Virus record (IMG/VR): IMGVR_UViG_3300017951_000168
Span: 1 to 21,527 of that record
Strand: one strand, 5' to 3'
DNA from: a virus
DNA length: 21,527 nucleotides
Notes under the pieces: model-generated
The model's database searches: none
Told to the model about the DNA's origin: nothing
Seen by the model: only the letters and a program-made list of their open reading frames with translations
Position numbers and translations under genes: made by a program
Part shown: one piece after another, positions 2,916 through 20,111 of the stretch
Layout of the letters: the number at the start of each line of letters is the position of its first letter
Numbering within the stretch: position 1 is the stretch's first letter

Positions 2916-3509
2916 ATGGCATCATTGTTCGATACACTACAGGCCCAGGCTTTCAGAGCAGGTATTACTGCTCGTACTAAAAAGTCTCAGAAGTGGTTTC
3001 GTGATAAGATTGAAGATATTAGAATGCCAAGTAGACAAGCTCTACTTAAGGATAGTGCATTAGATCCAACTACAAGAGAGTTAAGAGGGTCAATGTATAT
3101 GTATTTTTACGATCCAAAACACAAACAGACTCTACCATACTATGATAGATTTCCACTAACAATTATGATAGAGCCTAGAAAGAATGGATTTTTAGGTCTT
3201 AACTTACATTATTTGAGACCAGATATACGTGCAAAATTTCTTGATGAATTAATGAAATTAGCCCCAGGAAATGTAAGAGATACTTCAAGATTAATGAAAG
3301 CAAGATATGATCTGCTAAGTTCTACAAGAAAGTATAAAGAATTCAGACCATGTCTTAAAATGTATTTAAGTGATCACGTAAAATCTAGGTTAGTAAGAGT
3401 ACCAATGTCCGAATGGGAAATTGCAGTATTCTTACCAACAGAACAGTTTAGAAAATCAGGCAAGACAAAAGTATGGGCCGAGTCAATTAAAATTGCGAGA
3501 CAGACATGA
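2916..3509 (+). CDS. Conserved T4-like virion protein (possibly gp2, DNA end protector)
   Basis: The 197-residue protein contains a central motif 'MYFYDPKHKQTLPYYDRFPL' followed by 'GFLGLNLHYLRPDIRAKFLD', a pairing I recognise as conserved in T4-like phages of marine bacteria. A C-terminal 'PMSEWEIAVFLPTEQF' segment completes the pattern. No signal peptide or membrane segment is seen. In T4 the gene next to gp4 is gp2, which sits at the packaged DNA end and blocks RecBCD; the same adjacency here makes gp2 one candidate, but T4 gp2 is longer (about 274) and I could not align it, so a baseplate or neck role is also open. Its TGA overlaps the next ATG (ATGA), showing coupling. Confidence 0.7.
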   Translation: MASLFDTLQAQAFRAGITARTKKSQKWFRDKIEDIRMPSRQALLKDSALDPTTRELRGSMYMYFYDPKHKQTLPYYDRFPLTIMIEPRKNGFLGLNLHYLRPDIRAKFLDELMKLAPGNVRDTSRLMKARYDLLSSTRKYKEFRPCLKMYLSDHVKSRLVRVPMSEWEIAVFLPTEQFRKSGKTKVWAESIKIARQT

Positions 3510-4141
3510 ATGTAGATAAACTTAAATCAACAATTGCAAAACGTGGTGGTATTGCAAAAGCAAATAGATATAAAGTAATTCTAACACCACCTCAGCAAAG
3601 TCTATTTAATATAGACCCACAAGCAATTTTTACTAGCCTGATCTCTGGAGAAGGTATTAATGCTGGAAGTTTAATTAATAACCCAAGGGATGTTGCTATG
3701 TTATGTACTGCTGCTCAAATACCAGGCAGAGAGATTGCTACAAATGAAGTAACACTGCAAAAACAAACAGTAAAAATGCCTTATGGGTTTATTGATCCAG
3801 ATGTTGAACTAACATTTATGTGCACAAACGATATGTATATTAAGAAAATGTTTGATGACTGGAGTAATTCAGTAATTGATACTAAAAATTATATTTTAAA
3901 TTATAAAAGTGATTTTACAAGTGATATTATTATACAGCAATTAAATATGGACGATAAGGTAACTTATGGTGCAAAGTTAATTAATGCATTTCCAGTGAAT
4001 GTGGGTGCAATAGATTATTCGTATGATTCTGAAGAAGTTGCTTCATTTACAGTAAGTTTTACATACGATAGATATGAATTGGAGGGAGGAATAGGTTCCT
4101 TCCTATCAGGCGTTTCAGAAGCTTTGGGCGTCTTAGGTTAA
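3506..4141 (+). CDS. Tail-tube-fold protein (gp54 tube initiator or gp19 tube)
   Basis: The protein has 211 residues. It has a basic N-terminus (KLKSTIAKRGGIAKANRYKVIL), a 'CTAAQIPGREIAT' segment, then 'VKMPYGFIDPDVELTFMCTND' and 'FDDWSNSVIDTKNYILNYK', ending in 'INAFPVNVGAIDYSYDSEEVASFTVSFTYDRYEL'. This layout (C-x-x-AxxPG ... F.DW...V .. Y .. F P ..V..ldysyds....f.vtf.Y) is the gp19/gp54 tail-tube fold. The plus-strand hub and tape-measure neighbours (gp26, gp51, gp29-like) favour gp54, which starts the tube on the baseplate; a gp19 major tube protein cannot be excluded. ATGA overlap with the previous gene. Confidence 0.7.
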   Translation: MNVDKLKSTIAKRGGIAKANRYKVILTPPQQSLFNIDPQAIFTSLISGEGINAGSLINNPRDVAMLCTAAQIPGREIATNEVTLQKQTVKMPYGFIDPDVELTFMCTNDMYIKKMFDDWSNSVIDTKNYILNYKSDFTSDIIIQQLNMDDKVTYGAKLINAFPVNVGAIDYSYDSEEVASFTVSFTYDRYELEGGIGSFLSGVSEALGVLG

Positions 4142-4167: not shown

Positions 4168-4890
4168 ATGGCATTACCAGTAGTGAATTCCTCTCGTTAT
4201 GAGGTAGAAATTCCAAGTATGGGTATTACAGTTGAGTATAGACCATTCTTGGTGAAAGAAGAAAAGATTTTAATGGTTGCAATGGAATCTAAGAATCAAA
4301 AGAATATTCTTAGAGCAATTAAAAACGTATTAAGGTCTTGTATTTTTGATGATGTTAATGTTGATGATTTTACATCATTTGATTTAGAACAGATGTTTCT
4401 AAAGTTAAGGACTAAGTCAGTTGGAGAAACTGTAGATTTAAAACTTAACTGTCAAGGTGAAAAGTGCGATCATAAAATTGATCACACTGTTAACTTAGAA
4501 GAAATTGAATTAGAAGGGGTAGATAAAGAAAGAATAGTTATGGTTACTGATGAGATCGGGATCCAATTTAATTATCCTTCTCTTGATACTCTTGCAGAAG
4601 TACAGTATGATGAAAAATCTAAGCCTGAAGTTCAACTAAAAGAAACAATGAAGTTGATAATTGGTTGTATTAATAATATTTTCGATGCAGATAATGTTTA
4701 TCCAGGCAATGAAAGTTCAGAAGAAGAGAAAATAGAATTTTTTGAAGGATTAAATTCAGATCAGTTTAAGAAAGTTGCAGAATGGTTTGCCACAGTACCA
4801 TCTCTTAAACATGATATAGAATATAAATGTGGCAAGTGTGGGCATGATAATAAATTGGAGCTGAGAGGTCTCCAAAGTTTTTTTACCTAG
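4168..4890 (+). CDS. 26: Baseplate hub assembly protein gp26 (T4_baseplate family)
   Basis: The protein has 240 residues. Its opening 'MALPVVNSSRYEVEIPS' and 'VEYRPFLVKEEKILMVAMES' is the typical start of gp26-type hub proteins in T4-like marine phages. Two cysteine pairs, Cys95/Cys100 (CQGEKC) and Cys221/Cys224 (CGKCG), could bind one zinc ion between them. In T4, gp26 is needed for hub formation. An AGGAGA ribosome site lies about 11 bases before the ATG. The last codons before the stop are TTT TTT ACC TAG; the T-run forms a slippery site into the gp51 frame, so gp26 may also be made as a longer gp26-51 fusion. Confidence 0.82.
   Translation: MALPVVNSSRYEVEIPSMGITVEYRPFLVKEEKILMVAMESKNQKNILRAIKNVLRSCIFDDVNVDDFTSFDLEQMFLKLRTKSVGETVDLKLNCQGEKCDHKIDHTVNLEEIELEGVDKERIVMVTDEIGIQFNYPSLDTLAEVQYDEKSKPEVQLKETMKLIIGCINNIFDADNVYPGNESSEEEKIEFFEGLNSDQFKKVAEWFATVPSLKHDIEYKCGKCGHDNKLELRGLQSFFT
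4878..4884 (+). other. Candidate programmed -1 frameshift site T_TTT_TTT
   Basis: In the gp26 frame the codons at 4876-4890 read AGT TTT TTT ACC TAG, so 4878-4884 is a perfect X_XXY_YYZ slippery heptamer. A -1 slip enters the frame of gp51 without meeting a stop. The new frame continues Y-L-A-L-A-H-D-S-L-V-N-H-Y-K-T, an intact gp51-like N-terminus for which there is no ATG. A 7-bp hairpin follows 15 bases downstream. Lambda G/GT-type tail chaperones use the same device. Confidence 0.7.
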
Positions 4891-4899
4891 CCCTCGCGC

Positions 4900-4919
4900 A
4901 TGATTCCTTAGTGAATCAT
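4900..4919 (+). other. Hairpin downstream of the slippery site
   Basis: ATGATTC (4900-4906) and GAATCAT (4913-4919) are a perfect inverted repeat with a 6-base loop. The hairpin starts 15 bases after the slippery heptamer. That is somewhat farther than the usual 5-9 base spacing for a frameshift stimulator, so its role may be frameshift stimulation, translation control of gp51, or none. Confidence 0.5.
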
Positions 4920-5084
4920 TATAAAACAAACTTTGCTATGATGCAACATCATAAGTACAGTTTAACAGAATTGGAAAATATGGTACCATGGGAGAGAGAA
5001 ATATATATAGCTCTTTTACAGCAACATATTAAAGAAGAGAATGAGAGGGCAAAAGCTCAAGAACAAAGAATGAGGAGAAAATAA
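4911..5084 (+). CDS. 51: Baseplate hub assembly catalyst gp51-like (likely reached by -1 frameshift from gp26)
   Basis: The frame encodes 'VNHYKTNFAMMQHHKYSL', 'ELENMVPWEREIYIALLQQH' and a charged tail, as in small gp51-type proteins of T4-like marine phages; T4 gp51 is an assembly factor needed for hub formation. The conserved sequence runs back through the in-frame residues Y-L-A-L-A-H-D-S-L to 4884 with no ATG. The only independent starts are GTG at 4911 (given here, 57 residues) and ATG at 4938 (48 residues), and neither has a ribosome site. I therefore think it is mainly made as the C-terminal part of a gp26-51 fusion spanning 4168-5084. Its TAA overlaps the next ATG (TAATG). Confidence 0.75.
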   Translation: MNHYKTNFAMMQHHKYSLTELENMVPWEREIYIALLQQHIKEENERAKAQEQRMRRK

Positions 5085-13617: not shown

Positions 13618-14205
13618 TTATAAGGAAGGAAAGGTTATTAACCCAACCGAATCCATAACTTGAATATTATTAATTACAGCAAGAGTTAATAAGGCATTTG
13701 GGAAGTGCAAGTCCTCAGGATTGTCTCCAGCAAGATGGATCATGTATCTTCCCCAAAATAATTTGAATAGTATTATTTCCCCATCGCTTGGGTTTTTACC
13801 TAATAGTGGATTTGCCTCGTAAACATTTGGATGGCTAAGACCACGAATAGTTGTATATGCGTCTAATGCATTGATTGCCCAGAAATAGGTCTTTATTTGT
13901 CTATCATCAAACTGTGAGAATCGTAACCCTTTCAGATTTACCTTTGACTGTAATGTTATCGACTTGATTGAAGCTTCTCTCCGAACACTTTCCAGCAGTG
14001 AACTGTGATAACAACACTCGAACCCCATCATAATTTCTTGTTTGGCCTTCGAGTCTAGCGCCCAAGTTGACGGCATCTCCAATGACGGAATAGTCAAATC
14101 GAGATTCCGATCCCATATTTCCGACGATGCAGTCGCCGGTGTTGATACCAATACCAACATCAATCCTAGGAAGGCCTTGATCTTCCAATTGTGCAATAAG
14201 TTCAT
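13618..14205 (-). CDS. Small protein with DUF5658-like end, overlapping the cyclase gene
   Basis: The downstream part, about residues 100-195, is the non-overlapping real segment: 'TYFWAINALDAYTTIRGL' and 'YEANPLLGKNPSDGEIILFK', a pattern of a small family in phages and bacteria (ALDAYTT...ANPLLGKNPS), often exported or membrane-bound. Upstream there is no ATG, GTG or TTG between the cyclase stop and Met60, so the start must lie inside the cyclase gene: Met59/60 (overlap about 120 bases) or Met1 (overlap 299). From Met1 the sequence 'KAFLGLMLVLVSTPATA' looks like a signal peptide with an ATA cleavage end. No ribosome site decides it. The start given is the longest form. It is the last gene of the late unit; no terminator follows before promoter 13569-13597. 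Confidence 0.6.
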   Translation of the reverse strand: MNLLHNWKIKAFLGLMLVLVSTPATASSEIWDRNLDLTIPSLEMPSTWALDSKAKQEIMMGFECCYHSSLLESVRREASIKSITLQSKVNLKGLRFSQFDDRQIKTYFWAINALDAYTTIRGLSHPNVYEANPLLGKNPSDGEIILFKLFWGRYMIHLAGDNPEDLHFPNALLTLAVINNIQVMDSVGLITFPSL

Positions 14206-15736
14206 CTGCTGCCTCTAATATTTCTACTGCTGTCCTTACAGCCATATCTGCATGATTTTCACATGGTAATGGTGCGTTCCAGAATGCCATAATACAATCG
14301 CCCATATATTTATCAATAGTTCCACCATTCTTGAGAATGATTTTTGTCATTGTATCTAAGTAATTATTTATAAGCTTTACTAACCCTTCTGGGTCATTAT
14401 TGTTTTTATAGTGTTCTGATATTGGTGTAAACCCAACAATGTCCATAAACAAGAAAGTCATTTCCTTTCTTTCTCCACCAAGTTTTAAAAGTGATGGGTC
14501 TTTCTGTAATAACATAACTTGTCTTGGGTCTAAGTAAGTTTCAAATTGTTTCTTAATTTGTTGTCTGAGAACAAACTGTTTATAGAAATTATTAAAGCTT
14601 GTTGATGTAAACAGCAGTATAAATAGCACTAGAGGATAACTAAGGTCTAAAAGTATCTGGAATTTAAACCATGCAAACCAAACTCCAAAGATAGATATAC
14701 CGAGAACCTTAATAAATGTAAATGAGGATATCCACAATGATGTATAATAAGCAGTTAGAACTACCACTAGACCAAATAGAAGCATTACCCCAATCTCCAA
14801 GGCATTTGCCCATATGGGCCGTGAAATCTGGGCCCCATCTATTATGGACTGCATTGCAGAGGCCTGAAGTGAATGTGCAGGTTTCATTCCAAATGGAGTT
14901 GGAATTTGAGCCGAAAGACCCTTTGCAGTTAGACCAATCAGAACAGTCTTACCCTGTAGATCAGGTAACTCACTGGACCCGTAATTTATATCCTGAAAAT
15001 GGGTATTAGGATTAATCCACATAGAACCATTACTATCTGAATTAATTCTAAACGGCCTTAAGATTATTTCTTCAATACCTGCTTCGTTTACTTTAACTGT
15101 ATATGATGGTTTCTGATTCATCACTCTTATAGTTTCTAAAGAGAATGCAGGATATAGCTCACCATTGATTTGAGATATCAGAGGGATTCTTCTTACTAAC
15201 CCATCCACCTCTGGCATACCATTTACAAGACCGTGGCCCCACGCTCCTTGTTCTAGCTGTGATATATTAGTAATAAGACCACTATATTTTATAACCCAGT
15301 CTAGCGGGTCTCCTGTACCAAATGTAGCAGAACCCACATAAGGTGCTGTAGATGATTTACCTGAATTATCAGCATCCTGTGCGAGTATAATACCATTATC
15401 ATTTATCCAAGATGCAAATACTTCATCACCACCAAATCTATCTGCCTCTGGAAACATAATTGTAAATCCTATTAGACCTGCATTTGCATTACGAAGATCC
15501 GAGATCATCTGCGCATATATTTGTCTAGGAAATGGATATTGGCCATGAACAGCCAGTGTTTCTTCTGATATATTTAATAATACTATTTGATCTGAATGTT
15601 TTTCTTCTATCGTGCCTATCATGGCATCGAATGTATTTAATCTGAATTGTTGAACCAGAGCCGGATCTAGCAATCTGATTCCTACTAAAAGTAAGAATAA
15701 GGCTATAGTCGCCCAGATAGATGTTATATATTTCAT
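13907..15736 (-). CDS. CHASE2-domain transmembrane adenylate cyclase (class III)
   Basis: With ATG at 15736 the protein has 609 residues and an ATGA overlap with the curlin-like gene before it; a longer start at 15781 is possible but less likely. Order: N-terminal helix (about 6-22), CHASE2 periplasmic sensor (about 30-305, including 'GFTIMFPEADRFGGD' and 'LQGKTVLIGLTAKGL'), three membrane helices (about 310-382), linker, class III cyclase domain (about 420-605). The catalytic set is complete: metal-binding Asp432 (FMDIVGFT) and Asp480, adenine-selecting Lys476 and Asp548 (DKYMGD, FDYSVIGD), transition-state Asn557 and Arg561 (VNLGARLE). K/D rather than E/C predicts cAMP, not cGMP, as product. 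Such cyclases are common in bacteria, often near FecR-domain genes, but unusual in a phage. Confidence 0.9.
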   Translation of the reverse strand: MKYITSIWATIALFLLLVGIRLLDPALVQQFRLNTFDAMIGTIEEKHSDQIVLLNISEETLAVHGQYPFPRQIYAQMISDLRNANAGLIGFTIMFPEADRFGGDEVFASWINDNGIILAQDADNSGKSSTAPYVGSATFGTGDPLDWVIKYSGLITNISQLEQGAWGHGLVNGMPEVDGLVRRIPLISQINGELYPAFSLETIRVMNQKPSYTVKVNEAGIEEIILRPFRINSDSNGSMWINPNTHFQDINYGSSELPDLQGKTVLIGLTAKGLSAQIPTPFGMKPAHSLQASAMQSIIDGAQISRPIWANALEIGVMLLFGLVVVLTAYYTSLWISSFTFIKVLGISIFGVWFAWFKFQILLDLSYPLVLFILLFTSTSFNNFYKQFVLRQQIKKQFETYLDPRQVMLLQKDPSLLKLGGERKEMTFLFMDIVGFTPISEHYKNNNDPEGLVKLINNYLDTMTKIILKNGGTIDKYMGDCIMAFWNAPLPCENHADMAVRTAVEILEAADELIAQLEDQGLPRIDVGIGINTGDCIVGNMGSESRFDYSVIGDAVNLGARLEGQTRNYDGVRVLLSQFTAGKCSERSFNQVDNITVKGKSERVTILTV

Positions 15737-16479
15737 TGACCTTGTGTAACTGATACTGTACAACCACCGACTGTATAACAAGTTTGAGATAGTGAATATG
15801 ATTGAGCAGTTGTTCCTAACTGTATCAGTGTTAAATCTGTTCCGTATGTTCCATCAAGTGTAATGTTTGCTGTATGAGAAGTATTTGCACCTTTTTGTCT
15901 TAACGTAACTAAATTATCATCATTATATATTGTTAGATCCATATCTTTTGCACCACTTGATTGTTGTCTTCCATTAATTTCGTTCCAATCTCCTGCAAGA
16001 TGAAAATTAAAATCGTGTCCGTCTGTTGCATCACTTTGATTTGTTTGGTGCCATTTAAGTGAATTATTACTACCATATAAATCTATTTCCATATAGTGTC
16101 CGCCACCTTCAGCACCATCATAAGTATATGAACCATCACTCTGCCATGCAACACCTTGTGCTAATTTAAATGTATTATTTGAACCTGATACTTCATCAAA
16201 TAAAATTTTATTAACATTATTTGTAAAATTATATTGGACTATGTGAATATCTAGGTTAGGTGCATTGTTAATATAAGAAGCAGAATCTAACATGCCAATT
16301 TGATTATTATATCCTACTTGCTCGATTTCTAATGATAGATTATCACCACTTTGTTCTATTGTAATTTCATTATCGTCTGCGTATAATGGCATTACTAAAA
16401 AGAAACATGACCCCCATGGTAATATCCAATATTTAAATATAAATTCTCTTATCTTCTTCCAGTCCATTCTAACCACCAT
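15733..16479 (-). CDS. Exported curlin-like repeat protein 2
   Basis: The 248-residue protein has a basic start and hydrophobic core (about 13-34, FIFKYWILPWGSCFFLVMPL) ending at 'YA-DD', a likely signal peptide. The mature start 'NEITIEQSGDNLSLEIEQVG' matches the CsgA-type repeat I-x-Q-x-G-(x)-N-x5-Q. Further strands with Asn turns follow (GSNNTFKLAQG, GSNNSLKWHQ, NLVTLRQKGANT, TLIQLGTT, SVTQGQ). Two cysteines (234, 240) near the end are matched in the sister protein. It resembles a fibre subunit or nucleator. Met5 (16467) is an alternative start. It lies between FecR and cyclase genes. Confidence 0.72.
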   Translation of the reverse strand: MVVRMDWKKIREFIFKYWILPWGSCFFLVMPLYADDNEITIEQSGDNLSLEIEQVGYNNQIGMLDSASYINNAPNLDIHIVQYNFTNNVNKILFDEVSGSNNTFKLAQGVAWQSDGSYTYDGAEGGGHYMEIDLYGSNNSLKWHQTNQSDATDGHDFNFHLAGDWNEINGRQQSSGAKDMDLTIYNDDNLVTLRQKGANTSHTANITLDGTYGTDLTLIQLGTTAQSYSLSQTCYTVGGCTVSVTQGQ

Positions 16480-16534
16480 CTGAAGTACCTTCTTCCTTCT
16501 CCGTACGCTGCCGATCTTAATTTATTATATTTCA

Positions 16535-17653
16535 TTAATTTACCTGATTGATAACGATAAAAATATCTTCACCGTCATTTCCTGTTATATCTCCTTCCCA
16601 TGTAGGAGTGTTTGTAGCAAGAGTAAAGTTACCACCTGTTCCGACTTTAACTTTAATTACTCCATTTACATTTCTATATAGTACTAAACTTCCATCTTCC
16701 AAATAAACATTATATTGTGATTCTTCATTAAATCCTCTAGTTGCTCCTTTGATATCAAACTCGCCTAAAGAATCAAATAAATCTGATGAATCAATTATGT
16801 CTAGCACATCAACTAAATATTCTACGTTTAGTTCATCAATATCTAACTCACTAAAATCTAATTCCGGTTCACTTTCTTCTAGTGCGTCTTTTTCTAGTTC
16901 GTTAAATTCTAAGAAGTCTATATCCAATAAACCTCTATCATCATTTTGTTCATCAGCCAACTCTTCTTCAATTCTATCTTTTACTTCAGGTGGAGGAGCA
17001 ACGATAAACATATTATCAATTTGAGTTGGAGTAATTCCATTTAATTTTACTACTTGGGTGGGTGCGGTATCTAATGAACTTACCATTGTTGCTTGATAAG
17101 CTTCATCAAGAGTTACTACACCACCTAAATTAGCCACCTCTATTTCTCCAGACGGATCTCCATTTTCATCTGGCAACAATATAACTAATGATCGGCCTAA
17201 TTCATCTACTGTTGTAGTAAAATCAGTACCTCTAATTGCTATTGTTGCAGTCGGAGTAGATATATCAATATTTGCATTATTAACTAATCCTAATCTGCCT
17301 GAAGCAAACCTTGCCGTACCCATTGTGAACTTCATTGTCATCTTGGACAGGGATGGGTCAGCATCATAATATATTTCATCTATTAGAACTTCACTATGTT
17401 CTTTTAATGCTAATTGAGCCTTATCTAAAAACTCTATTAACATTCTCCCCTGTCCAGTTTCTGCAATATCATTTAATTCGATAGCAGTATTAACAGCCAT
17501 ACTTACAGACTGTTGGTTTCTTACTATCTGACCAACTCCTGTGGACTCGACTATACTTCCAATATCATCATCTGCATATACAGGCAAAGATAAAAGAAGT
17601 ATAATACTAAGAGTCGCTAGAGCTGTCTTGCTGATTAATCTGAATTGTAGCAT
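16535..17653 (-). CDS. Periplasmic FecR-domain protein
   Basis: The 372-residue protein begins with a signal peptide (ISKTALATLSIILLLSLPVYA, cut about 27). A FecR domain follows (about 55-150) with 'GQGRMLIEFLDKAQLALKE' and the signature 'STPTATIAIRGTDFTT'. Residues about 215-300 are strongly acidic (EEELADEQNDD, ESEPELDFSELDIDEL), and a small strand-rich end follows. Unlike the iron regulator FecR it has no membrane helix, so it is probably a soluble sensor, scaffold or fibre partner. It overlaps the curlin-like gene upstream by 47 bases. FecR-domain proteins paired with CHASE2 cyclases are known in bacteria; here the curlin-like gene sits between them. Confidence 0.82.
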   Translation of the reverse strand: MLQFRLISKTALATLSIILLLSLPVYADDDIGSIVESTGVGQIVRNQQSVSMAVNTAIELNDIAETGQGRMLIEFLDKAQLALKEHSEVLIDEIYYDADPSLSKMTMKFTMGTARFASGRLGLVNNANIDISTPTATIAIRGTDFTTTVDELGRSLVILLPDENGDPSGEIEVANLGGVVTLDEAYQATMVSSLDTAPTQVVKLNGITPTQIDNMFIVAPPPEVKDRIEEELADEQNDDRGLLDIDFLEFNELEKDALEESEPELDFSELDIDELNVEYLVDVLDIIDSSDLFDSLGEFDIKGATRGFNEESQYNVYLEDGSLVLYRNVNGVIKVKVGTGGNFTLATNTPTWEGDITGNDGEDIFIVINQVN

Positions 17654-18344
17654 TGTCTGATGTAATATCTAAATCTATAATCGCATTTGGTGTAGCACAA
17701 CCCGTAATATTTGTAGCACAAGTTCCACTGATTTGATCAATATCAATGTCAGCAGAATCTCCACTTAATACTACAGTAAGAGATTGAGAACCATCATTCT
17801 GTAATGTGTTAATGTTATTGCTGTCTCCAGTAATATCAAAATTCCAAGTTACATCATCAGCCTCAAAATCTAAATCAAATACGTTAGAACTACCAACCAG
17901 AATTAAGTCAGCATCCAATCTTTCAGCACTATATAAATATCCTTGATCTATATCAAATGTATTACTATCTCCAGTGATATCAAAGTTATAATTTGAATCA
18001 TCAGCAGAACCTATGTAACCAATATTCCAGTCCAATACATTTGAATCTCCTGTAAAAGAAATAGTAAAATCAGATGTATCTGAAATAAGAGGTCCATAAA
18101 TTATATTTTGATTACCTATCATATCTATATCAAAAGTTAAAGATGATCCAGTGATAACCATATCAGAAGCAGTAGTTGAAAAATCATTACCGCCGATCTT
18201 GTTACCATATCCAATCTGATCAATATAAAGTGTTAAAGTATTACCACTTTGTTCAATCATGATTTCGTTATCATCAGTTGCTTGTGCCAAAATTGAAGGT
18301 GCTAAAAATGCACTTAATACTAAACTAGTTAATACCTTCTTCAT
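17607..18344 (-). CDS. Exported curlin-like repeat protein 1 (amyloid subunit candidate)
   Basis: The 245-residue protein opens with a clear signal peptide (KKVLTSLVLSAFLAPSILA, cut after Ala20 or 22). Its mature start 'NEIMIEQSGNTLTLYIDQIG' follows curlin logic (I-x-Q-x-G ... Q-x-G-x-x-N). It then carries repeats of alternating hydrophobic strands joined by G-D/S-S-N turns at about 99, 125, 151, 173 and 195, 22-26 residues apart (FTGDSN, ITGDSN, VGSSN, ITGDSN, SGDSA). The body is Asp-rich, unlike Gln/Asn-rich CsgA. Cys209 and Cys216 lie near the end, as in the sister gene. It starts 20 bases inside the csgG end, with AGAGG before ATG. CsgG and CsgF next door suggest that it is the exported cargo. 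Confidence 0.78.
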   Translation of the reverse strand: MKKVLTSLVLSAFLAPSILAQATDDNEIMIEQSGNTLTLYIDQIGYGNKIGGNDFSTTASDMVITGSSLTFDIDMIGNQNIIYGPLISDTSDFTISFTGDSNVLDWNIGYIGSADDSNYNFDITGDSNTFDIDQGYLYSAERLDADLILVGSSNVFDLDFEADDVTWNFDITGDSNNINTLQNDGSQSLTVVLSGDSADIDIDQISGTCATNITGCATPNAIIDLDITSDNATIQINQQDSSSDS

Positions 18345-19350
18345 TTTCGTTTTCCTCTATTAGAGAGTGCCTTTGGTTTACCCCACCTATTTGGTGAGGA
18401 TGCCTATGGCCCTCAGTTAAATTCCAGAATTTACGGTCATGGCCCTGGTAGATTAATTCCAGTACAGCCGCCTCAATGGCAGATCGTACTGCATACGTCA
18501 CGCTCTCATTATTTCCCACTCCGTCCTCATACTCTAATAGTCTTGTACCTTGTTCATAGAACCTAAATACATCACCACTAGAGCCGTAAGAAAGTACCGA
18601 CTTCTTAGCCTGGACGTTTAATAAAACTTCCCCCGTTAGAACTGAAACTGCTCTTACTGCAACAGTTACAACATCTTTACGGTACATTCTACTATAACCA
18701 ATCCCGAGAGTTCTGGCACCACGGCCTCCTGTCTCCAAATTAGTATCGTAGCCTATTATTCCGCCCTCTATGATTATTCCTGCGAATAACATGGGGCCTA
18801 ATTCCTTTGCTTCCGTGCCTTGACTTCTTGCCAAATCTTGACGGCCGCTTCGGATAATTTGTCTTTCTCTTACAAGGTTATCAATACCTTGCCTTTCTAC
18901 TACTCTAAACCAAGTGCCACCACCTGCAGTTTTAAGAGCATCTATAAGTAATTCTGTTCCACCTTGGGTCACTGCTGTAGAAAATGAAGCAACATTATCT
19001 ACTGATTTTCTTTGTCCTGTTTTATCAGTAAACCCATAAACTGCCACTACTGGCATTTCTTCTGCTGGTGGTAAGTTAAGTAATTCTACAAATGAAGGTA
19101 GTCTGATAGCCATTGGATTGTCTACGCAGATATACTTTCTTGACATTACTTTTTGCCATTCGTTATATCCTTGTCTAGCAACTGTGACTAAATCATCATT
19201 AATAACACCATCGTTATCAAAATCTTTATCGTAACCTTCACTGTATATTCCTGCTAGATCATTGCAGTCTCTCGGATCTGAACTCCATTGTGGTACAGAA
19301 GCGCAACCAGTTAAAAATAATAATCCTGCTGTTAATAAAGTTCTAACCAT
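18325..19350 (-). CDS. csgG: CsgG-like outer-membrane lipoprotein channel
   Basis: The 341-residue protein has a lipobox, LTGC, with Cys16 for lipid attachment. The core matches CsgG closely: 'VAVYGFTDKTGQRKS', 'SFSTAVTQGGTELLIDALK', 'FRVVERQGIDNLVRERQIIR', 'IIIEGGIIGYDTNLETGGRG', 'ARTLGIG', and 'VRAVSVLTGEVLLNVQAKKS' with 'LSYG...VFRF'. In bacteria CsgG is a nonameric pore that exports curlin. The constriction loop, aligned by eye, keeps Phe56 but has Asp and Ser for Tyr51 and Asn55 of E. coli. About 80 extra residues lie before the core, with a calcium-loop-like 'DKDFDNDGVINDD'. It overlaps csgF by 8 bases. Confidence 0.92.
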   Translation of the reverse strand: MVRTLLTAGLLFLTGCASVPQWSSDPRDCNDLAGIYSEGYDKDFDNDGVINDDLVTVARQGYNEWQKVMSRKYICVDNPMAIRLPSFVELLNLPPAEEMPVVAVYGFTDKTGQRKSVDNVASFSTAVTQGGTELLIDALKTAGGGTWFRVVERQGIDNLVRERQIIRSGRQDLARSQGTEAKELGPMLFAGIIIEGGIIGYDTNLETGGRGARTLGIGYSRMYRKDVVTVAVRAVSVLTGEVLLNVQAKKSVLSYGSSGDVFRFYEQGTRLLEYEDGVGNNESVTYAVRSAIEAAVLELIYQGHDRKFWNLTEGHRHPHQIGGVNQRHSLIEENENEEGIN

Positions 19351-19846
19351 TGTCTGGATCCTGCCCGAAATTACCAGTTCCTACTGGAATCTCTATAACA
19401 GTCTCTGAACCATCCTCTGCTACAATCGTCATTCTAATAACTTCTGAACCATCTGCATTAGTAATTACTTCATAGGTAACTGTATTACCTTCTAAAACAA
19501 ATGAACCAAATCTTACTGATCCGTCATTAGAAAACATAGATTCCACTAATTGTTTTGCCATCTGAGCATATATTCTGCTCTCTAAATTTCTGATAAATTT
19601 TGCAAGTACGCTATTATCTTCTTCCCTTTCTGCTGCTTTTCTTGCTGCTTCTAAAGCATCTTCAATTGCTTTCTTTCTAGTGTGTTCTATATTATCAATT
19701 GTAAGGTAATGTTGACCTGTACCAACTCCACTAAAGGAAGGATTCTTAAATCCAAACTTTATTTCATCTGCATATGCAGGTTGGGTAATACCAAATATTG
19801 ATACTACAAAAATACCACATAATATAGCAACTTCAAACTTGCTCAT
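19343..19846 (-). CDS. csgF: CsgF-like curli assembly factor
   Basis: The start at 19846 is chosen because AGGAGGA sits 5 bases before it; a longer reading from 19885 overlaps the 92-aa gene needlessly. The 167-residue protein has a signal peptide (about 1-26, ending QPAYA) and mature N-terminus 'DEIKFGFKNPSFSG', which matches CsgF 'TFQFRNPNFGG', the part that inserts into the CsgG channel. After this come a helical Ala/Glu-rich stretch and strands at the end (NADGSEVIRMTIVAEDGSET). CsgF couples the pore to curlin nucleation at the surface. Next gene csgG overlaps by 8 bases. Confidence 0.85.
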   Translation of the reverse strand: MSKFEVAILCGIFVVSIFGITQPAYADEIKFGFKNPSFSGVGTGQHYLTIDNIEHTRKKAIEDALEAARKAAEREEDNSVLAKFIRNLESRIYAQMAKQLVESMFSNDGSVRFGSFVLEGNTVTYEVITNADGSEVIRMTIVAEDGSETVIEIPVGTGNFGQDPDNG

Positions 19847-20111
19847 TATTTCCTCCTCGCTTATTGGTCTTTTTCTTTTTTTCATTCTCTCTATATTCTA
19901 AGATTACATTTACTTTTTGTTGTAATCTAATTAAATCTTGATCTAACATTCTTGTCTGATCAATTACTCTTATCAACGCAATGTGCATTTCTTCTAACTT
20001 AGGTTCTATGTGTTCATTTATATACGACCAAACATAGTATATAAAATATCCCATCCCAACTGCCATTACTGCTGGGAATCCGTAATCTGATACTAGTTGT
20101 GCCACATCCAT
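19833..20111 (-). CDS. Holin-like single-pass protein with coiled tail (92 aa)
   Basis: There is one N-terminal membrane helix (residues about 11-30, FPAVMAVGMGYFIYYVW) with a short exposed start (MDVAQLVSDYG), followed by a coiled-coil tail (35-75) and a very basic end (KKKKTNKRGG). This resembles BhlA/UviB-type phage holin-like proteins in layout. The 98-aa gene upstream has the same layout, so the two may be paralogues. It starts directly after that gene's stop, with AGGAGA before the ATG. Position after the lysozyme supports a lysis role, but a part of the curli cassette is possible. Confidence 0.65.
   Translation of the reverse strand: MDVAQLVSDYGFPAVMAVGMGYFIYYVWSYINEHIEPKLEEMHIALIRVIDQTRMLDQDLIRLQQKVNVILEYRENEKKKKTNKRGGNNEQV

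Follow-up and report, generated by a model that had tools for sequence, protein, structure and literature searches.

The window, by which we mean the whole 21,527-nt stretch of viral DNA analysed here, carries on its plus strand a T4 gp26-like gene that is overlapped at its end, in the -1 frame, by a gp51-like open frame (Table 1). The encoded gp26 scores 207 bits against PF12322, the T4 gp26 family, the curated cut-off of which is 24.5, and phrog_634 labels the product of the -1 frame as gp51, ‘baseplate hub assembly catalyst’. Within the 282 columns of phrog_150, gp26 covers 5-233 and the extension 232-282; because the extension continues the profile where gp26 ends, some members of phrog_150 already look fused. 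In the window gp51 exists solely as this -1 extension, with no free-standing full-length gp51 gene that has a start of its own, and no second copy of gp51 or gp26 was found in the 21.5-kb record, which may be a fragment.

The gp26 gene is located between a tail tube gene and a tape-measure-like gene, the tape-measure half of this statement being weaker than the tail-tube half. The sole tape-measure match of the 586-aa protein is phrog_1538, at a non-significant E of 0.58, a profile of T4 gp29 built from 68 proteins did not match it (probability 0.9%), and its best single blastp hit, to Ochrobactrum phage OC (E 5e-4), spans 30 residues only. The annotation of the gene at the corresponding place in phiM12 reads ‘similarity to phage tape measure proteins’. 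The gap between gp51 and the tape-measure-like gene is filled by a gene for a putative membrane protein, which shares one base with the gp51 stop; small genes downstream of gp51 are also present in Mosig, phiM12 and RHph_I9. Elsewhere in this T4-like phage contig lies a curli-type cluster (13618-19885, minus strand), and relatives of CsgG are present in Pelagibacter phage HTVC008M and in the Methylophilales Melnitz phages.

Table 1. Features of the window, with positions counted from its first letter
Feature	Position	Strand	Basis or description
Tail tube protein (gp19-like), directly 5’ of gp26	3506-4141	+	phrog_45 2e-36, PF23849 1e-10
gp26, putative short tail assembly chaperone (TAC-N), 240 aa	4168-4890	+	PF12322 3e-61, phrog_150 4e-66
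Slippery heptamer T_TTT_TTT, one codon 5’ of gp26 stop	4878-4884	+	frame and conservation
gp51, putative -1-frame extension of long chaperone, 66 codons plus stop	4884-5084	+	phrog_634 5e-30
7-bp hairpin, possible but weakly supported stimulator	4900-4919	+	ATGATTC/GAATCAT, 6-nt loop
Putative membrane protein, 110 aa	5084-5416	+	phrog_27150 E 1.5e-4 (unknown function)
Tape-measure-like protein, 586 aa	5428-7188	+	place, length, charged N-terminal part, hydrophobic stretches
CHASE2 adenylate/guanylate cyclase	13907-15781	-	
Protein with curlin-like repeats	15733-16479	-	
FecR protein	16535-17653	-	
Protein with curlin-like repeats, below cut-off	17607-18344	-	
CsgG	18325-19350	-	PF03783 1e-53
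CsgF	19343-19885	-	1e-12

The last codons of gp26 are AGT (4876), TTT (4879), TTT (4882), ACC (4885) and the TAG stop (4888), the protein ending in G-L-Q-S-F-F-T. The first-pass annotation had seen a slippery T_TTT_TTT here, four bases from the stop; codon phasing bears out that the seven T’s follow the X_XXY_YYZ pattern in the gp26 frame, but the spacing between the T-run and the stop is three bases, or one codon. Its statement that the -1 frame is exactly the gp51 frame holds as well, with the phrog_634 match running in that frame to 5084. Read with the shift, the protein continues as SFF-YLALAHDSLVNHYKTNFAMMQHHKYS...RRK up to a stop at 5082-5084, which gives a full product of 305 aa and a predicted gp26-gp51 junction peptide of GLQSFFYLALAHDS... 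Furthermore, as had been noted, gp51 lacks an obvious start: none precedes the slip, and the first ones in the open -1 frame, a GTG nine codons and an ATG 18 codons past it, are without a Shine-Dalgarno-like motif. We rejected the notion that a run of seven T’s is unusual in itself, as the AT-rich window holds 11 such runs where 18.6 are expected; the site stands beyond chance because of its frame, its place and its conservation.

Conservation of the heptamer and the frame relation across T4-like relatives, the check proposed in the first-pass annotation, extends to every sequence that could be assessed. We scanned IMG/VR with gp26 peptides, not with the slip site, and added two scans to a first set of 80 loci, so that the window plus 161 of 162 loci were testable (162 of 163 sequences; L061, which is cut off, was dropped). 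TTTTTT[T/C] is located exactly one codon upstream of the gp26 stop in all 162, as TTTTTTC in 84 and as TTTTTTT in 78. In the first IMG set, gp51 was found in the -1 frame at 79 of the 80 loci, the remaining one being L061, and the gp51 alignment begins 7 nt upstream of the gp26 stop. One locus (L001) is probably the same virus as the window, since its gp26 is 100% identical.

For codon statistics we dereplicated the set to 80 representatives. All of them have TTT in the P site, compared with 72% of the Phe codons elsewhere in these genes (P about 6e-12). In all of them, too, the next codon upstream (AGT in 51, TCT in 17, AAT in 7, GAT in 3 and GCT in 2) ends in T, compared with 77% for Ser (AGY), 83% for Asp and 73% for Asn in the remainder of the genes (P about 1e-13). 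Both P values assume independent representatives, an assumption that related sequences violate. The A-site codon is TTT in 42 and TTC in 38. As such, the synonymous positions of the slip site are frozen in the 80 representatives.

The hairpin that had been pointed out downstream of the heptamer is present and begins 15 nt past it, but its stability does not clearly exceed what the coding sequence imposes, nor is it general in near relatives. Folding of positions 4885-4960 gave a z of -2.06 against dinucleotide shuffling, while a codon-preserving control, in which the amino acids of the -1 frame were fixed and synonymous codons redrawn, gave a z of only -1.07 (p 0.115). Because of this latter score the hairpin is a weak point of the finding, and we rejected it as a stimulator, as being unproven. 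With the same codon-preserving control, z fell below -2 in 28 of the 38 representatives with T_TTT_TTC (mean -2.77) and in 13 of the 42 with T_TTT_TTT (mean -1.32), so that a significant stem-loop is absent in 29 of the latter. Cyanophage relatives carry strong stem-loops that start approximately 4-6 nt past the heptamer, with longest stems of approximately 11-17 pairs, and their sequences differ between clades.

A survey of named phages covered 29 regions, divided into 15 with a T6 slip, 6 with split genes, 7 with a -1 frame lacking T6 and 1 other. All 15 of the T6 type (S-WAM1, Mosig, P-SSM2, S-PM2, V09, avDM12, BUCT608, SRB7757, MED4-213, PX29, phiM12, RHph_I9, OC, S-CRM01 and Melnitz-3) have gp26 linked to a -1 gp51 through T_TTT_TT[T/C/G], always at one and the same position in the protein; RHph_I9 has TTTTTTG. 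A joined gp26-gp51 CDS is listed in none of the 29 regions, among them the 21 annotated records of the frameshift type, SRB7757 being without annotation. T4, RB69, AS-gz, SW69-9, PTE-Eco09 and Maroon have separate gp26 and gp51 genes, and in none of these six was a T6 run found near the gp26 end or at the equivalent place in gp51. The two genes are divergent in T4 and RB69. In Citrobacter phage Maroon (L190:2392-3685), unlike in T4, a long gp51 and a short gp26 stand in tandem with an 8-base overlap. Campylobacter phage WX1, of which only the gp51 side was examined, has a long free gp51. In another T4-like contig (L184:2501-3258), excluded when gp51 was aligned, the gene for gp51 is split midway between two frames, which may be an error or real.

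The separate genes of T4 had been taken as counterparts of the two parts joined here, and a slippery run lost with both genes kept as a sign against frameshifting. Such a loss does occur, but T4 gp26 and gp51 are not simply the two halves. With hhalign, 93 fused products matched 11 gp51-type proteins almost end to end (99.7%, E 1.4e-25, columns 16-285 versus 6-246); the extension alone matched the gp51-type C-terminus (96.9%, 1.3e-10), and neither its comparison with gp26-type proteins nor a reversed control gave a match. Homology also links the short form with T4-type gp26 (99.7%, 4e-25), and the gp26-type with the gp51-type proteins (99.6%, 6e-24). These matches make T4 gp26 and gp51 related short and long forms, gp51 being the homologue of the full-length fusion. 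Therefore, the loss of the run in T4, RB69 and the four others does not refute frameshifting in the marine group, since gp51 there carries its own gp26-like N-terminal part. In a tree of the gp26-like part (39 rows) the frameshifters lie on one side of a branch (93/89), the gp51-type proteins form one clade (100/99), and only the long Maroon branch breaks up the gp26-type; being unrooted and with long branches, this tree does not date the duplication. Other Straboviridae may have abandoned frameshifting, keeping short-only gp26 and long-only gp51 copies instead.

What kind of protein, then, is gp26? Residues 1-94 of its AF2 model (80 rows, pLDDT 92) matched two tail assembly chaperones (TACs) in the PDB, namely 3FGX, Rbstp2171 (Z 8.3, 85 aligned, 3.4 A), a TAC according to PMC9603447, and 2OB9, HK97 gp13 (Z 7.1, 84 aligned, 3.9 A). 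They are followed by 5IR0 at Z 5.2 and then, in the next row shown, by Z 2.5, a gap that matters because unrelated folds can come close to a Z of 7-8. Foldseek alone gave no E < 0.001 for the model, and no meaningful sequence relatives of gp26 were found in the PDB. Judged by its predicted structure, gp26 carries the fold of these two solved TACs. A viral structure library yielded gp26-like proteins from a range of myoviruses; one of these, from Acinetobacter phage ZZ1, bears the annotation hub assembly catalyst. A model of T4-type gp51 (pLDDT 86) shows a similar order of elements, with no TAC among the PDB matches listed. The third match of gp26, 5IR0, is ORF19 of a Vibrio cholerae PICI-like element and aligns with the TAC domain (4168-4450, residues 1-94); as such, a phage satellite may possess a chaperone-like protein.

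Because of the TAC fold and the place by the tail tube and tape-measure-like genes, we read gp26 as the putative short TAC of this marine phage and gp26-gp51 as the long one. It is highly probable, from the sequence comparisons, the structural model and the analogy with lambda G/GT, that a -1 slip on T_TTT_TTT yields both. A minority of ribosomes would move back one base on the heptamer, at the last codons of gp26, with two Phe-tRNAs slipping in tandem from UUU-UUU to UUU-UUU; these ribosomes would bypass the TAG and append 66 residues. If lambda gpG and gpGT are a guide, the shared gp26 part may coat the tape measure protein, the added gp51 part may bring in the tail tube protein, and how often ribosomes slip would determine the balance of short and long chaperone. 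Both the frameshift and the G/GT analogy were suggested in the first-pass annotation; both are now supported by independent evidence, namely the frame, the synonymous constraint, the absence of starts, the TAC fold and the gene order.

Alternatively, gp51 could be a separate protein made through translational coupling, from an overlapping ATG or from a later GTG or ATG. Existing records do list gp51 as its own CDS, a TAATG or TGATG overlap occurs in the KVP40-type V09, in Stenotrophomonas (Menderavirus) BUCT608, in K493, VAP7 and RC-2014, as well as in 2 of the 80 representatives, and in 14 of these 80 an ATG lies three codons past the slip. However, an ATG in the open -1 frame upstream of the slip is found in none of the 80 and another type of start in one, in 54 nothing ahead of codon 8 past the slip could serve as a start, and a Shine-Dalgarno-like motif precedes the first start in just 2. 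Residues ahead of every start are conserved in the window and in most of its relatives. This is well pronounced for the 45 representatives without a start before codon 14, in which pairwise differences in codons 2-13 amount to 2226, 2363 and 5633 at the first, second and third codon position. The -1 stretch is therefore under constraint at the protein level, and would be translated, before any possible start, and the sole lead-in to it is the gp26 frame; in relatives of the L007 type, a TAG in the -1 frame stands immediately upstream of the T-run. Moreover, coupling leaves the frozen T_TTT_TT[T/C] unexplained, and T4 gp51 has a gp26-like part fused to it. We consider coupling very improbable in general, although it may operate in V09, BUCT608 and the 14 representatives with the early ATG.

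Runs of seven or eight T’s can provoke transcriptional slippage, and the run in the window is a T7, so that mRNAs one base longer or shorter, rather than a ribosomal shift, might join the frames. This would be slightly less probable still, as 84 of the 162 sequences have only six T’s, the wobble positions of the Phe codons are constrained such that both tRNAs can re-pair, and the stem-loops of the T6C group lie a few nucleotides downstream of the heptamer. Lastly, the site is a homopolymer in a metagenomic virus record, which invites the reading that assembly or homopolymer errors produced the frame change, or that the gene is decayed. We give this a negligible chance: it is refuted by the identical frame change recurring at this place in 15 named phages and in all 162 sequences, of which half have T6C.

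The programmed -1 slip, as preferred here, is most difficult to extend to the Ackermannviridae and their relatives, where all 22 rows (K493, K369, VAP7, phiEa2809, RC-2014, SFP10, KWBSE43-6 and 15 IMG loci) keep a -1 gp51 without any T6 run, the extension being homologous to gp51 (97.2%, 4e-11). Ackermannviridae gp26 ends in I-F-I-stop, an ending found at loci L092, L197, L213, L214 and L198-L212, with a conserved R_ATT_TTC_ATT_TAA and no canonical heptamer; their relatives have C_GTT_TTT or A_CTT_TTC. A matched tandem slip is impossible at any of these sites. There is no start codon before codon 12 of the extension in 17 of the 22, and in some rows the -1 frame is closed two codons upstream of the site, so that a shift would fall within three codons. 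The extension would be the result of a one-tRNA slip on UUC or of initiation on AUU/AUA, and the slip of the T7 gene-10 type is a precedent for such a site, which is the least explained part of our analysis. No loci like SRB7757 and K493 were found in IMG/VR. We consider it an even chance that the -1 signals of the T4-like chaperone gene have been of two or more kinds, T_TTT_TT[T/C] in most lineages, whether a stem-loop follows or not, and the Ackermannviridae type, besides one exit through gp26 and gp51 copies.

On the proposed reading, a frameshifted chaperone pair would run through marine T4-like phages, and records in which gp51 figures as a ‘hub assembly catalyst’ of its own, or is missing, would therefore misstate the product. 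The role of T4 gp26 and gp51, an old question, would become testable as a ratio of short to long chaperone, and the T6 slip, the non-canonical slip and the two genes would form a natural series for the gain, tuning and loss of frameshifting.

In lambda, the G/GT gene sits between the tail tube and tape measure genes, and the slip site is G_GGA_AAG, whereas the window would slip on T_TTT_TTT. The gp26 of the window exceeds lambda gpG in size (240 aa) and has, past the TAC domain, a second part that contains Cys. The likeness lies in a short chaperone with a -1-extended form and a slip near the stop of the short form, as outlined in an earlier review, which describes G-T frameshifting as a conserved trait of long-tailed phages ‘except T4’ (PMC5009743). 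T4 differs from the window in having two genes and no slip site; its gp26 and gp51 appear in PMC3004832 as hub assembly chaperones, with gp51 absent from the particle and the presence of gp26 disputed. The principle of frameshifting in T4-like phages is already in print and not new. Vladimirov, Gautam & Davidson (Virology 2022;566:9-15) named T4-like TAC genes, as PMC10885494 and PMC12846349 cite their work; the former paper, on PRFect, has them report some T4-like phages with one short and one longer fused copy, in agreement with the relation between T4 gp26 and gp51 found here, and the latter credits them with poly-T slip signals in T4-like TAC-N genes. As far as these citations tell, the gene kind and signal kind are the same as in the window. 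In the literature searched, which includes Vladimirov et al. 2022 by way of its citations, we found no description of a gp26/gp51 frameshift in marine phages. Phage Adele (Vandenendeviridae/Andersonviridae; PMC12846349) offers a comparable case, in which TAC-N has a poly-T motif at its end and a -1 frameshift there, but this motif is GTTTTT and the phage families are different ones.
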